Source of the DNA: an uncultured Saccharospirillaceae bacterium
GTDB lineage: Bacteria > Pseudomonadota > Gammaproteobacteria > Pseudomonadales > Natronospirillaceae
NCBI GenBank assembly: GCA_913063165.1
Contig: CAJXZL010000005.1
Location: 1 to 64,000 of the forward strand
Length of the DNA: 64,000 nt
Direction: 5' to 3'
Below, one piece after another: positions 39,495-46,230 of this stretch. The notes under the pieces were generated by a model, which did no database searches, had not been told where the DNA came from, and worked only from the letters and a program-made list of their open reading frames with translations. The position numbers and the translations under genes are program-made. Numbering within the stretch: position 1 is the stretch's first letter; each line of letters starts with the position of its first letter.

Positions 39495-41294
39495 CTAGTC
39501 TACTTTCAATATCGCTAAAAATGCGTCCTGGGGTATTTCTACACGCCCAAATTGCTTCATACGCTTTTTACCGTCTTTCTGCTTTTGTAACAGTTTCTTC
39601 TTACGTGACACGTCGCCGCCATAACACTTAGCGGTCACATCTTTACGCATGGCTTTCACATTGGTACGCGCAATCACTTGGTTGCCAACCGCAGCCTGAA
39701 TAGCCACGTCGTACATTTGTCGCGGAATCAACTCTTTCATTTTCTGACACAGAGCCAAGCCTCGGCCACGTATCGCTTCTTTGTGCATGATAACGGCCAA
39801 GGCATCAACACTCTCACCGTTCACCAAAATATCCAAACGGGTCATGTCTGCAGCTTCAAATCGATCAAAACTAAAATCCAATGACGCGAAGCCTTTAGAG
39901 ACTGATTTTAAGCGATCGAAAAAGTCCATCACAACTTCAGCCATGGGAATGTCATAAGACACGGCTACCTGGCCACCTAAAAACTGCATGTCGTTTTGAA
40001 TGCCACGGCGCTCAGTACATAGCGTGATGACATTACCCAGATAGGCTTGAGGTACCAAAATATTGGCCTTAACGATGGGTTCCCTGATTTCTTCAATATT
40101 TTGCGGTGGTGGCAATTTAGAAGGGTTATCGACCATCACTTCTTTGCCATCGGTGCGCAACACCTGATAGACCACTGTCGGCGCTGTGGTGATCAAATCC
40201 AGGTTGTATTCTCGTTCGAGTCGCTCTTGAATGATTTCCATGTGCAACATGCCCAAGAAACCGCAACGAAAACCAAATCCCAACGCATCAGATGATTCAG
40301 GTTCAAAGAACAACGACGCGTCATTAAGACTTAATTTAGACAACGCGTCTCGGAAATCTTCATATTCGTCTGAACTGGTAGGGAACAAACCCGCATATAC
40401 CTGGGGTTTGATTTTTTGGAAACCAGCTAATTGTGCAACTTCTGGCGTCTTCTGGTGCGTGATCGTATCACCCACGGGTGCTCCGTGAATGTCTTTGATA
40501 GACGCACAGATAAAGCCCACTTCACCGGCTTTAAGGATTCCGGTTACGTTGCGCTTGGGAGTAAAAGTACCGAGCGAGTCGACAACATGGGCGCGACCGG
40601 TCGATTTGATAATGATTTTATCGCCCTTCTTTATCGTGCCTTCTTTTACACGAACCAGAGATACCACACCCAAATAGTTATCAAACCACGAGTCGATAAT
40701 CAGGCATTGTAAATGATTGTCTGGGTCACCTACCGGCGGTGGCACGCGTCTGACTAACTCTTCAAGCACTTCGATGATGTTTAATCCCGACTTTGCACTG
40801 CACTGCACGGCGTCGGTGGCATCAATACCAATAATTTCTTCAATTTCGTTGGCCACACGCTCAGGTTCAGCCTGAGGCAAATCCATTTTATTCAAAACCG
40901 GCACGACCTCTAGGCCTTGCTCTATGGCAGTGTAACAGTTTGCAACCGACTGGGCTTCGACGCCCTGAGCCGCATCAACAACCAACAACGCACCTTCACA
41001 AGCAGCCAACGACCGTGACACCTCATAGGTAAAGTCCACGTGCCCCGGCGTATCAATAAAATTCAATTGATAGGTATTACCATCCAAAGACAAGTAATTC
41101 AGGGTGACGCTCTGGGCCTTGATGGTAATGCCACGCTCACGCTCAATGTCCATACTGTCCAAAACCTGGGCAGCCATCTCGCGATCGGCTAAGCCACCGC
41201 ACACCTGAATGAACCGGTCAGCCAAGGTCGATTTACCATGGTCAATATGGGCAATGATTGAAAAATTTCGAATGTGTGACAGTTTACTACTCAC
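39495..41294 (-). CDS. lepA: Elongation factor 4 (LepA)
   Basis: LepA is a ribosomal GTPase related to EF-G that acts on stalled or initiating ribosomes. The 599 residues contain [10 protein letters not shown] (G1), DTPGHVDF (G3), NKMDLP (G4), and the unique C-terminal domain with [25 protein letters not shown]. The start is GTG. It is upstream of lepB, the usual pair. Confidence 0.98.
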
Positions 41295-41449: not shown

Positions 41450-42841
41450 TTATCGAATTCGGACGGCGATGAACAACGGCGAACCATTACGGAGCAATCT
41501 TACCGCCACCACATGCCCGGGTTTTAATTGGGTCTGTAATGACTGAAATTGCGCGTCAGAGGTAATGCCGCGATTGCCCATCATGGTGATAACGTCACCC
41601 GCTGCCAATCCTGCATCCTGACCCGAGCCTGGGTAAACCTGAGTAACCATAACACCTGACTCACCCACCATCGACTGCTCTTCAATTGACAGGTCTTGTG
41701 TGCGAATGTTGAGTGCATTATTTGGCGCTCTATCAGGCTCAGCTGCACCGGTTCTGGCGGCCGCCAAATCCTCTGGTAGCTCTTCAATGGTTACGGTGAT
41801 GATTTGCCTTTTGCCATCACGCAATACCAAAACATCTGCTTTTTCGCCAGGCAGTACGGTGCCTACGATTGGAGGCAATTCACTCGAATTGGCAATATCG
41901 ATTCCGTTGAACCGCAGTATCACGTCACCATTTTTCAAGCCAGATTTCTCTGCTGGGGATTCAGGCAATACCTGAGAAATCAATGCGCCTTGGGCACGAG
42001 GCAATCCATAGGACTCGGCCAAATCTTTATCGAGTTGCTGAATCAAAACACCCAACCAGCCACGGGATACACTACCCTTGTCACGAATCTGTAAATACAC
42101 GTTTTTAGCCAAGTTAGCTGGAATCGCAAACGACACGCCCATATAGCCGCCAGACCGCGTATATATTTGTGAGTTAATACCCACTACTTCGCCATCCAAG
42201 TTATACAGAGGGCCGCCCGAGTTGCCTGGATTGATGGCGACGTCAGTTTGGATAAACGGTACATAATTTTCACCGATGTTCCGGCCCATGGCGCTCACGA
42301 TACCGGCAGTAACCGAGTAATCAAGATTAAAAGGAGACCCAATAGCTAGTACCCACTCACCTACTTTTAAGCGGTCTGAATTACCGAAGGTCACCGCGTT
42401 AAAATCAGCTCCGTCAACTTTCAGAAGTGCTAAGTCAGTTCGTGGATCGGTTCCAATAACCTTTGCGTCATATTCACTCCGATCGGTCAGTGTGACGGTC
42501 ACTTCATCAGCGCCTTCGACCACGTGGTTATTGGTAAGAATGTAGCCATCACTGCTTACAAAAAAACCAGACCCACTGGTTTCTTGCGGACGAATGTCTT
42601 GCTGAGGAAAAGGGATATCACCAAAGAAACGTTTAAAGATTTCAGGAATCTCTTGATCTGGACTCATACCGCCATGCTCAGCGGGCTTGGCATTGGTCAC
42701 TGTCCAAATTTTAACCACCGATGTGGCATTATCCGCCGCAAGCTCTGTAAAGTCCGGCAGTGTTACGCTGGCAGCCTGTACCTGAGGCACCCAGATAAGC
42801 AACGCCATAAAGGCCCATGAAATTGATCGCATAGCTGACAT
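41450..42841 (-). CDS. mucD: Periplasmic serine protease of the DegP/MucD type
   Basis: The 463 residues comprise a signal peptide (cleavage near VQA), a trypsin-like domain with His in TNNHVVEGAD, Asp in RTDLALLKV and Ser in GNSGGPL, and two PDZ domains from about 270 and 375. It is a DegP/DegQ/MucD-type protease and chaperone for misfolded envelope proteins. The ATG at 42841 follows AGAGG; 42883 is an in-frame alternative that would hide the signal peptide. It follows rseC, as mucD follows mucC in pseudomonads. Confidence 0.93.
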   Translation of the reverse strand: MSAMRSISWAFMALLIWVPQVQAASVTLPDFTELAADNATSVVKIWTVTNAKPAEHGGMSPDQEIPEIFKRFFGDIPFPQQDIRPQETSGSGFFVSSDGYILTNNHVVEGADEVTVTLTDRSEYDAKVIGTDPRTDLALLKVDGADFNAVTFGNSDRLKVGEWVLAIGSPFNLDYSVTAGIVSAMGRNIGENYVPFIQTDVAINPGNSGGPLYNLDGEVVGINSQIYTRSGGYMGVSFAIPANLAKNVYLQIRDKGSVSRGWLGVLIQQLDKDLAESYGLPRAQGALISQVLPESPAEKSGLKNGDVILRFNGIDIANSSELPPIVGTVLPGEKADVLVLRDGKRQIITVTIEELPEDLAAARTGAAEPDRAPNNALNIRTQDLSIEEQSMVGESGVMVTQVYPGSGQDAGLAAGDVITMMGNRGITSDAQFQSLQTQLKPGHVVAVRLLRNGSPLFIAVRIR

Positions 42842-42964
42842 ACTGAAAACCTCTACAAAAATGACGATTAAGAACAATAACATGCTACCTATTGGCCGAA
42901 AAAACCAGTAGGCGGCGGTGGTTTTTACCTGACGTTTACAGTGGTTATACCGAAAGTAGACGGG

Positions 42965-43417
42965 CTATAAAGGGCCAAGGTGTGGCTGATAACGGGTGTC
43001 GCAATCCCACCTCGATATCCATTTTTTGACGCCAGCAAATGACAGTCCCAAACCCAAAATGCCCGATAGCGTAACAATACCGTCGGACGTTCCCAACACC
43101 ACTGCAATGGATGAGGCGATGAACATGCCGAATAAGGGTGCGGCATATACCAGTAAGGCGGTTTTTAAAACCACGCCTTCTTCTATCAATACCTGCACCT
43201 GACTCCCTACATCTGCCGATGTCGTGGCACCGTGGTCTGATAGCGCTACCCGCAGAACATTCTTTTTATATTGTCGCCCTTCATCCATCAATTGCCCCAA
43301 TACCGCCTGACCACAACCAGATCGTGCAGAGCAGCTTTGGCAAGACGACGCACGCACGGTTTCGACCCATAAGTAATCGGCATCTTTTGCGATGATGGTG
43401 CCTGTTTCAGCGATCAT
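42965..43417 (-). CDS. rseC: SoxR-reducing system protein RseC/MucC
   Basis: The 150-residue membrane protein has N-terminal Cys residues in SCQSCSARSGCG (26, 29, 35), then two membrane helices. RseC-family proteins are encoded with sigma-E genes in most relatives and take part in SoxR reduction. Here it is the first gene before mucD, but no rpoE, rseA or rseB precedes it. About 120 bases separate it from mucD. Confidence 0.92.
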   Translation of the reverse strand: MIAETGTIIAKDADYLWVETVRASSCQSCSARSGCGQAVLGQLMDEGRQYKKNVLRVALSDHGATTSADVGSQVQVLIEEGVVLKTALLVYAAPLFGMFIASSIAVVLGTSDGIVTLSGILGLGLSFAGVKKWISRWDCDTRYQPHLGPL

Positions 43418-43551
43418 GATTGTCCTTAGATTCCAAAGTGGCAGGCCGTCATTGTAACAGAATCTGCTGTAAGGGCATCAACCTCACCCATATCTGGCCT
43501 GTCCCGCTGCACCGCACATAAACTGGGTATGAAGCAATGACACTGAATGGT

Positions 43552-43725
43552 TCAGTCCACATGAAAATGGGCAACAGATGAAACTGAACACGGAAAATAA
43601 ACCGAGCACACCCCAGACTCATGGGCGAAGCAGCTCATTGAGATTGGCGCAAACACTACTGACATGGCAAGAACCCGTTTCGCGCCTTTGACCAACAGCA
43701 AAAATTCAATTGATTTTTTAGGCAT
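43552..43725 (-). CDS. Small putative secreted or membrane protein, unidentified
   Basis: A 57-codon frame starts at an ATG with GGGAGCAGGA just upstream. The N-terminal half is a signal-peptide-like stretch (basic MPKKS, then hydrophobic residues, more basic residues and AMSVVFAPISMSCFA). The rest is short and Cys-containing. It resembles no family I know. It occupies the interval where rpoE-rseA-rseB would be expected between nadB and rseC. It may be a real small gene, a remnant or chance. Confidence 0.35.
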   Translation of the reverse strand: MPKKSIEFLLLVKGAKRVLAMSVVFAPISMSCFAHESGVCSVYFPCSVSSVAHFHVD

Positions 43726-43797
43726 TCCTGCTCCCTGACTGGATATTTACAACACACCAATTATACTCGCCTGCACATTTTTCACGGATAAGTATCC

Positions 43798-45411
43798 ATG
43801 CCTAATATGACCTTTGACGCCATTATTCTTGGAAGCGGTGCTGCTGGCTTGACTGCAGCCTTGCTGATGCCAGCTGAATGGCGTATTGCGTTAATTAGTA
43901 AAACCGAACTTATCAGTGGCGCGACCCAGTGGGCGCAAGGTGGCATTGCCGCGGTATTAGACCAATCAGATTCTGTAGAATCGCACATCTCAGATACTCT
44001 GGTCTCAGGTGTTGGCCTCTGTAACCTAGCAGCAGTAACCCAAACCGTTTCTCAGTCGGCTGTTGCCATCGACTGGCTTATTGATCAGGGCGTTCCGTTC
44101 ACCGTTAATCCTGTATATGCAGAACCTGGCGCAGAGTATCCATTCCATTTGACCCGCGAGGGTGGCCACAGCCACCGGCGTATCATCCATGCCGCAGACG
44201 CGACTGGACGGGCGATATCTCAAACACTGACCGATAATGTCCGAAAACGCAGCAACGTGACGATATTTGAAAACTTTACCGGCATCGACATCGTGACCTT
44301 TGAAAAACTGGGGCTGACGGGGTCTGGAATGGCAGGGCTATATGCGCTAGACCGGGACAAAAAATCAGTCGTGGCATTTAGATCACAACGGTTGCTACTC
44401 GCTACGGGGGGCGCATCTAAAGCCTATTTGTATACATCCAACACCGATGGGACATCAGGTGATGGAATCGCAATGGCATGGCGCGCTGGCTGTCAGGTGG
44501 CTAACATGGAATTCAATCAGTTCCACCCAACCTGCCTGTATCACCCGCATGCCAAATCGTTTCTTATTTCCGAAGCGGTGCGCGGTGAAGGTGGCAGGCT
44601 GACCCTGCCCAATGGTGAAGCATTCATGCACAAATTCGACGAGCGCTTAGAATTGGCGCCACGAGACATTGTCGCCAGAGCCATAGACCACGAGATGAAG
44701 CGATTGGGGATTGACCATGTTAATTTGGATATCAGCCACCAAACACCAGAATTTATCAAGCACCACTTCCCGACCATTTATAACCGCTGCCTGAGTTTTG
44801 GGATCGACATTACCAGCCAACCCATTCCCGTCGTACCTGCTGCCCACTATACCTGTGGTGGGATTCAGACCGACCTTGATGCGGTGACAAACGTCAAGGG
44901 CATCTATGCGGCAGGTGAGTGCGCCCACACGGGGCTGCATGGCTCCAATCGCCTCGCATCGAATTCATTGCTCGAATGCTTGGTGTTTGCACGTACTGGC
45001 GTGGCGCATATGCTCACTATGGCAACGCGATCGGGAGACTACAAAATCCCAGAATGGGACAATACCCGCGTGACAGATTCCAATGAAGACGTGGCCATCT
45101 CCCATAACTGGGATGAGGTGCGTCGCTGCATGTGGGATTACGTCGGGATTGTTAGATCGGATAAACGGCTACATAGAGCACTTAAGCGTGTGCATGTCAT
45201 ACAGGGTGAAATTAACGAGCACTACCGCACCTATCACGTGAGCAACAATCAGTTAGAGTTACGTAATTTGACGATGGTCGCCGAGTTGATGATACGGTCA
45301 GCTTTGTTGAGAAAGGAAAGTCGTGGGCTACATTTCACCCAAGACTATCCAAACGTGCTTCCCGAAGCGCTTGATACGCTATTAACGCCTTCGATGCTAG
45401 ATGCCACCTAG
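43798..45411 (+). CDS. nadB: L-aspartate oxidase
   Basis: NadB oxidises aspartate to iminoaspartate, which NadA uses. The 537 residues have the FAD motif LGSGAAGLTAAL, ATGGASKAYLYTSN and the substrate block EFNQFHPTC, HGSNRLASNSLLE. It is the first gene on the plus strand after the rseC-mucD cluster, an arrangement (nadB divergent from the sigma-E operon) widely shared in Gammaproteobacteria. Confidence 0.98.
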   Translation: MPNMTFDAIILGSGAAGLTAALLMPAEWRIALISKTELISGATQWAQGGIAAVLDQSDSVESHISDTLVSGVGLCNLAAVTQTVSQSAVAIDWLIDQGVPFTVNPVYAEPGAEYPFHLTREGGHSHRRIIHAADATGRAISQTLTDNVRKRSNVTIFENFTGIDIVTFEKLGLTGSGMAGLYALDRDKKSVVAFRSQRLLLATGGASKAYLYTSNTDGTSGDGIAMAWRAGCQVANMEFNQFHPTCLYHPHAKSFLISEAVRGEGGRLTLPNGEAFMHKFDERLELAPRDIVARAIDHEMKRLGIDHVNLDISHQTPEFIKHHFPTIYNRCLSFGIDITSQPIPVVPAAHYTCGGIQTDLDAVTNVKGIYAAGECAHTGLHGSNRLASNSLLECLVFARTGVAHMLTMATRSGDYKIPEWDNTRVTDSNEDVAISHNWDEVRRCMWDYVGIVRSDKRLHRALKRVHVIQGEINEHYRTYHVSNNQLELRNLTMVAELMIRSALLRKESRGLHFTQDYPNVLPEALDTLLTPSMLDAT

Positions 45412-45462: not shown

Positions 45463-45888
45463 TTACACAGCGGTGTTAAGCCAGGCCCTCAATGCACGCA
45501 AGGCTTCTGGGTCTGCGGAATCTGAAAACAATACCAATGATTTCTTCTGCCCCCTGTCATCGGCCAGCTTCAATACGGTCAACCAATGACTATTCCATTG
45601 TATTGCTGCCAAGTGACCCGGCCACCTTGTACCATCTTTTTGAATAAGGGTGAAAGCATCGCCAGCATATTCAAAGCCCATAATTGACGACTTGGCCGCC
45701 ATAGACACGGAACGAAAGAATACCCAGTTGAATCCCACACCGATGGGAAACAACAACATCAAAAACAGGGTATGAATGTCTGCCAATGTACTCACCGCAA
45801 TCATCAACACCAACAGCAGGCCATAGAGCCAAAATTTTAAGCGACTCGAACGCATTAGCGTGACAGCGACGGCATTATCGACTTTCAA
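45463..45888 (-). CDS. ygfX: YgfX-like membrane protein (CptA family)
   Basis: The 141-residue protein has two adjacent membrane helices (LYGLLLVLMIAVSTLA and LFLMLLFPIGVGFNWVF), then a soluble domain with DGTRWPGHL and a final DPEALRALRAWLN, as in YgfX. In E. coli it is proposed to be a toxin paired with SdhE. It overlaps sdhE by 14 bases. The start is TTG; ATG at 45855 is an alternative. The divergent function in this organism is not shown. Confidence 0.72.
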   Translation of the reverse strand: MKVDNAVAVTLMRSSRLKFWLYGLLLVLMIAVSTLADIHTLFLMLLFPIGVGFNWVFFRSVSMAAKSSIMGFEYAGDAFTLIQKDGTRWPGHLAAIQWNSHWLTVLKLADDRGQKKSLVLFSDSADPEALRALRAWLNTAV

Positions 45889-46135
45889 GAATTAGCCCTA
45901 CGATAGCGGCAATCTCAGCATCTTCTGGGATAGATGAGCGCATAAACCATGAAAACATATCTTGGTCTTCACAGGCTAATAACTGTTCATAACGCATCTG
46001 ATCGGCTTCACTGATTGTAGGGAAATGGTCACGTACAAAGGGAACTAAAATAAGATCGAGTTCCAACATTCCTCGACGACTGTGCCAAAAAATGCGGTTT
46101 AATTTTTCTTGACTGACCATTTTATTTTTCACCAT
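45875..46135 (-). CDS. sdhE: FAD assembly factor SdhE
   Basis: SdhE promotes flavin attachment to succinate dehydrogenase. The product of about 86 residues has the signature WHSRRGMLELDLIL (RGxxE) and the helical bundle LLACEDQDMFSWFM. The start is either ATG 46135 or ATG 46120; the frame to 46171 is too long. It forms the usual sdhE-ygfX pair, divergent from ygfZ. Confidence 0.93.
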   Translation of the reverse strand: MVKNKMVSQEKLNRIFWHSRRGMLELDLILVPFVRDHFPTISEADQMRYEQLLACEDQDMFSWFMRSSIPEDAEIAAIVGLILESR

Positions 46136-46230
46136 CGCCCATATCATGTTAAAAGAAGTTGCATAAAGCACACTTAATTCATTTCTGCGCTTAACTCATT
46201 CGTGTCGCTATTATAACTAAGGAATTACTA

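Follow-up and report, generated by a model that had tools for sequence, protein, structure and literature searches.

Apparent recurrent loss of the sigma-E pathway in Saccharospirillaceae with retention of rseC and mucD beside nadB

Introduction

Sigma-E is widespread in Gammaproteobacteria and essential in E. coli. Its genes are typically found by nadB, in the operon rpoE(algU)-rseA(mucA)-rseB(mucB)-rseC(mucC)-mucD. MucD, AlgW and MucP are given as the Pseudomonas counterparts of the proteases DegP, DegS and RseP, respectively, in the consulted part of PMC6737893. A reference cited in PMC3386227 (consulted in part) names in its title the provision of sigma-E activity as the function that makes degS indispensable in E. 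coli; co-loss of DegS with RpoE would therefore be expected.

The closest described case is that of Acinetobacter, which lacks RpoE and carries SigAb, a distinct copper-responsive ECF sigma factor with the anti-sigma pair AabA/AabB (excerpt of PMC12153292). A further point of reference is P. aeruginosa, where the genes cmaX-cfrX-cmpX lie upstream of sigX (excerpt of PMC7641640).

Here we analyze a stretch of 64,000 nucleotides (the window) from an uncultured Saccharospirillaceae bacterium, whose genome we refer to as G000. The order and orientation of nadB, rseC, mucD and lepA in the window are those of the standard operon; in contrast to it, rpoE, rseA and rseB are missing from the window, and no degS/algW-type protease was found in the genome. 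As in the portion of PMC12153292 that describes Acinetobacter, this is a gammaproteobacterial lineage without RpoE that has kept another ECF sigma factor; unlike SigAb, the ECF sigma factors here are SigX-like and ChrR-type, and the losses are repeated within one family. The loss is thus of the same kind as the Acinetobacter case, and what it adds are repeated losses beside intact relatives. A search of the open-licence literature in PubMed Central returned no paper on sigma-E loss in Saccharospirillaceae.

Results

The gene nadB (43798..45411, plus strand), coding for L-aspartate oxidase, scores 839.8 bits against NCBIfam PRK09077 (cut-off 629) and diverges across 380 bp from rseC/mucC (42965..43417, minus strand; PF04246, RseC_MucC, 90.1 bits, cut-off 24.4). 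Behind rseC follow mucD (41450..42883, minus strand; TIGR02037, 468.4 bits, cut-off 416.2), encoding a DegP/HtrA-type (Do-family) protease with two PDZ stretches recognized by the PDZ_2 profile, and lepA (39495..41294, minus strand), an ORF named by eye and a conserved neighbour downstream of mucD. With the profile scores of nadB, rseC and mucD above their cut-offs, the initial annotation was right to see these three genes in their usual places.

The interval between nadB and rseC (43418..43797), the normal site of rpoE-rseA-rseB, measures exactly 380 bp, is unbroken, holds zero N and is internal to a contig of 81,662 bases. When its six frames were compared with the ORFs of at least 100 amino acids from 14 intact operon intervals of relatives, the best score was 18.5 bits, which is exceeded by the mean of 50 shuffled intervals (20.2 bits, maximum 25.0). 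We therefore rejected the idea of a remnant of rpoE-rseA-rseB in the gap, and the earlier claim that the three genes are gone from this site, leaving 380 bp, holds on an unbroken contig. No Rfam match was obtained for a structured RNA at 43100-44100 at E values up to 1.

In place of rpoE sits a candidate ORF of 57 amino acids (43552..43725, minus strand), which by eye has the look of a signal peptide. Its codon log-odds of 0.132 lies between those of nine spurious ORFs (-0.05 to 0.11) and those of three genes (0.16-0.17), and an ATG-initiated ORF of this length is present in 39.6% of 2000 random sequences. Its best match across 319 loci, its own copies aside, has an E value of 3.4, and there is no match in NCBIfam. 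The codon use of the ORF is gene-like, and it could have arisen by chance.

Twelve of the 14 intact operons have rseC at most 54 bp behind rseB (the distance is about 190-220 bp in G355 and G138), so that a deletion of rpoE-rseA-rseB would probably delete the promoter of rseC as well. Upstream of the window rseC, which is preceded by an AAGGA ribosome site, we picked by eye a candidate extended -10 element, TGTTACAAT (43451..43459, minus strand), as the putative rseC-mucD promoter. A consensus promoter scan reported only plus-strand sites, two in number (shuffle mean 1.5); it gave no minus-strand site and did not list TGTTACAAT.

In order to see whether the missing genes are encoded elsewhere, as the initial annotation had proposed, the whole genome (2,553,226 bases, 112 contigs, completeness 98.12%) was searched for homologs of rpoE, rseA and rseB, and no match of RpoE, RseA_N or RseB grade was found. 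RseA_N (PF03872) had zero matches across G000, with a positive E. coli control. The RpoE equivalog model TIGR02939 (cut-off 236.15) picked up two ECF sigma factors below its cut-off, at 57.2 and 54.1 bits, the better of which reaches 64.1 bits when the whole protein is scored. For RseB the best score was 16.7 bits (cut-off 22.3), obtained by a protein that scores 144.9 bits as LolA-like. Matches to Sigma70_r2 occur at five sites, namely the two ECF sigma factors and three longer frames of 636, 344 and 316 amino acids, presumably the sigma factors for housekeeping, stationary phase and heat shock. A second HtrA protease of the DegS/AlgW type was also not found in G000, where the search returned only MucD and short PDZ matches. 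RseP is present at 402.9 bits (cut-off 147.55) on contig C16, flanked by ORFs that by eye resemble dxr and bamA; a placement of RseP at C1:175963, taken from a PDZ match, proved wrong, as the ORF there resembles a C-terminal processing protease by eye. Within the 98% completeness of the assembly, the dedicated sigma-E pathway is gone from G000 as a module, with no copy found elsewhere.

The initial annotation had also called for a comparison of the locus in relatives, and we mapped NadB, RseC, MucD, LepA and AlgU at the loci of 22 Saccharospirillaceae genomes including G000. Fourteen of them carry rpoE in the nadB-rseC interval, which there measures 2.2-2.7 kb, while it is missing from this site in the other 8/22 (G000, G225, G205, G372, G265, G392, G005 and G184); here the 380 bp of the window form the longest interval, the other seven measuring 100-205 bp. 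Two of the eight carry rpoE-rseA-rseB at another position, as three-gene cassettes without rseC behind them (G005 C1:838000-839659 and G184 C26:30477-32124). The remaining six (6/22) have no RpoE-grade match anywhere, their best scores ranging from 32 to 106 bits on a model whose cut-off is also missed by the in-place RpoE genes of G162, G388, G320 and G391. RseB had no match in five of these six genomes; the 29.8-bit match in G372 (cut-off 22.3) covers positions 97-169 only and is taken for a LolA-type protein. In G225, a single-contig assembly with a completeness of 99%, no match to the RpoE model exceeds 32.1 bits, which means that genuine absence occurs in the family. We considered whether the ECF sigma factor of G392 (105.8 bits with the RpoE model) might be a hidden RpoE and rejected this in favour of another ECF: it shares 32-35% identity with the RpoE genes among its 25 best matches and 42% with a different ECF, from G390; the frames behind it, named by eye, are a short cysteine-rich one and a methyltransferase-like one, with no RseA or RseB.

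Other parts of the locus and pathway are more constant. RseC is present in all 22 family genomes, as are RseP and RnfC, both above their cut-offs. LepA matches of 77.6-87.3% identity adjoin the locus in every relative but G390 (20/21). On contig C263 of this last genome, which is 90% complete, RseC is present and MucD was found neither adjoining nor by the DegS-model search.

Of 586 named relatives ranked by NadB, the best 80 all have an AlgU match at most 1.5 kb from nadB, which makes the 380-bp gap unusual outside Saccharospirillaceae; no fewer than two of these 80 (Saccharospirillum salsuginis and Reinekea sp. G2M2-21) belong to the family itself by NCBI taxonomy. In a wider sample of the order, RpoE exceeds the cut-off, which the four in-place RpoE genes named above also miss, in 334 of 390 genomes, and 18 have no match whatever.

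Counts of AlgU-consensus promoters were compared with reversed controls and gave 0 vs 3 in G000, 12 vs 12 in the RpoE-less genomes (n=6), 1 vs 5 in those with relocated cassettes (n=2) and 58 vs 43 in those with the operon in place (n=14). Three such sites lie directly upstream of rpoE itself (G337, G284 and G138). As they do not set the groups apart, these counts are too weak to serve as proof of a lost regulon.

The DegS-type second protease largely follows the distribution of the operon. It is found in 12/14 genomes with the operon in place, in 0/2 with a relocated cassette and in 0/6 without RpoE (12/14 vs 0/8, Fisher p 1.4e-4, a tip-level value that ignores kinship). These calls are judgements from the extent and place of the matches, the TIGR02038 cut-off being reached by 0/22, and they leave out trypsin-like matches near 55 bits in G005 (54.9), G162 and G388. 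The DegS model also picked up MucD in 21/22 genomes, the sole match in G390 being the DegS-type one. In G303 and G084 the degS site is flanked, by eye, by a Nif3-like gene on one side and his genes on the other.

To place these events we used a species tree built from BLAST-matched stretches of NadB, LepA, MucD and RseC, in which G390 is represented without MucD and LepA and some outgroups without LepA or RseC. Total loss of RpoE maps to at least four branches (G000; G225; G392 with G265; G205 with G372), although the position of the last pair beside G005, G320 and G391 is weakly supported (47). Counting losses only, there are six local losses of the operon and five of DegS, four of which fall on shared branches, a number reached by 98 of 20000 branch-length-weighted random placements. 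Judged from these sequence comparisons, the loss of sigma-E appears to recur independently within Saccharospirillaceae, with DegS going too. Both the absence of the DegS-type protease and the recurrence in the family go beyond the initial annotation.

In the RpoE tree, the relocated G184 copy clusters with its G005 counterpart (98) and with the copies of G320 and G391 (97), apart from other Saccharospirillum. This suggests acquisition of the G184 rpoE cassette by horizontal transfer, a tentative reading given the long G184 branch. G320 and G391 combine an in-place RpoE operon with the lack of a DegS-type match. The module is thus incomplete in some genomes, and the first cut of RseA would need another protease in these two.

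Discussion

We consider it very probable that the window's genome represents a real instance of a recurrent loss of sigma-E, with rseC-mucD presumably read from a local housekeeping-type promoter and SigX and RpoH left to deal with envelope stress. From an ancestral order that would have been nadB / rpoE-rseA-rseB-rseC-mucD-lepA, the lineage would have deleted RpoE, the anti-sigma factor RseA, RseB and DegS, the protease that makes the first cut. Having lost the rpoE promoter, rseC-mucD would be transcribed from within the 380 bp, probably by a promoter of the sigma-70 type.

RseC, RseP and MucD would have been kept for work outside sigma-E. DegP- and RseP-type proteases have substrates besides RseA. 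In E. coli, RseC works together with the Rnf-like RsxABCDGE in reducing SoxR (PMC11729352, consulted in part), and the window RseC would likewise act as an Rnf/SoxR reducer; the last three of the cysteines called conserved in that text are present in it as CX2CX5C.

Envelope stress may thus be left to other regulators, among which the best candidate is SigX with CfrX and the MscS-like CmpX, in addition to RpoH. ChrR-type ECF systems are tied to singlet oxygen, and one of the two ECF sigma factors of G000 is paired with a ChrR anti-sigma factor (172.3 bits, cut-off 124.5). The other has SigX as its best NCBIfam match, at 141.1 bits against a cut-off of 194. Upstream of its gene lies an MscS-like CmpX (PF05552, 79.1 bits, cut-off 22), and by cmpX a 98-amino-acid ORF without a Pfam match, called CfrX-like from its size and position only. 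The minus-strand run at G000 C1:199337-203825 reads zinc-peptidase-like, cfrX-like, cmpX-like, sigX-like and acetyl-CoA-synthetase-like, the last named by eye. In P. aeruginosa, it is oprF that follows sigX. The order cfrX-cmpX-sigX and the MscS-type CmpX are shared with that species as described in the excerpt of PMC7641640, whereas the gene upstream is zinc-peptidase-like here and cmaX there.

A stronger version of this idea would be that SigX, with CmpX as a tension sensor, has taken over the sigma-E regulon and now drives the envelope repair genes. Consistent with it are the SigX-like score, if below the cut-off, the conserved gene order and the description of P. aeruginosa SigX as an envelope-stress sigma factor tied to AlgU (same excerpt of PMC7641640). 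Nevertheless, we regard such a takeover as rather unlikely. G303 has sigX, cmpX and cfrX in the same order (64.5, 52.6 and 44.4% identity) together with an intact sigma-E operon; since both sigma factors coexist there, SigX was present beforehand and retained, rather than recruited to replace RpoE. Moreover, the 52 ECF matches examined for SigX included no such cluster from the other three total losses. These 52 come from a set of 71 (89 RpoE-model matches minus the 16 RpoE genes and the two G000 ECFs) and cover 1/1 each in G225, G205 and G372, 5/5 in G265 and 4/5 in G392. SigX as the replacement at all losses is therefore unsupported.

The initial annotation had left the choice between sigma-E control having moved and envelope stress being regulated differently. 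Relocation is real in G005 and G184. For G000 it would require that the rpoE-rseA-rseB cassette lies in the missing 2% of an assembly of 112 contigs (98.1% complete), and the two relocated cassettes, whose genomes likewise have no DegS-type match and thus make the absence of DegS compatible with a move, lend this some plausibility. Yet the covered part of G000 yields nothing of RpoE, RseA or RseB grade, and the single-contig G225 is truly without RpoE; we accordingly judge a hidden cassette to be very improbable, and with neither a copy elsewhere nor a DegS-type protease found, the second option is favoured. That the operon was dropped by misassembly at a collapsed repeat, as might happen in a 112-contig draft, is extremely unlikely, since the sequence is unbroken and N-free inside its contig, the absence is genome-wide and G225 and G005, each assembled as a single contig, have the same type of junction.

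Genuine loss being the preferred reading, the pattern separates proteins that seemingly serve sigma-E only (RpoE, RseA, RseB and DegS) from RseC, RseP and MucD with their other jobs, and a family in which nature has removed the pathway several times, with close kin still intact, offers a way to ask why sigma-E is dispensable and what succeeds it. More speculatively, and with the odds in our estimate clearly against it, sigma-E in Saccharospirillaceae might be a dispensable loose module, lost whole repeatedly, moved as a cassette and in G184 passed sideways independently of DegS, with SigX-CmpX as the main envelope stress sigma system in the window's lineage.

On the far side of nadB, the minus strand of the window at 45463-46171 encodes SdhE, then a membrane protein resembling CptA (PF07254, 32.6 bits, cut-off 27.3).
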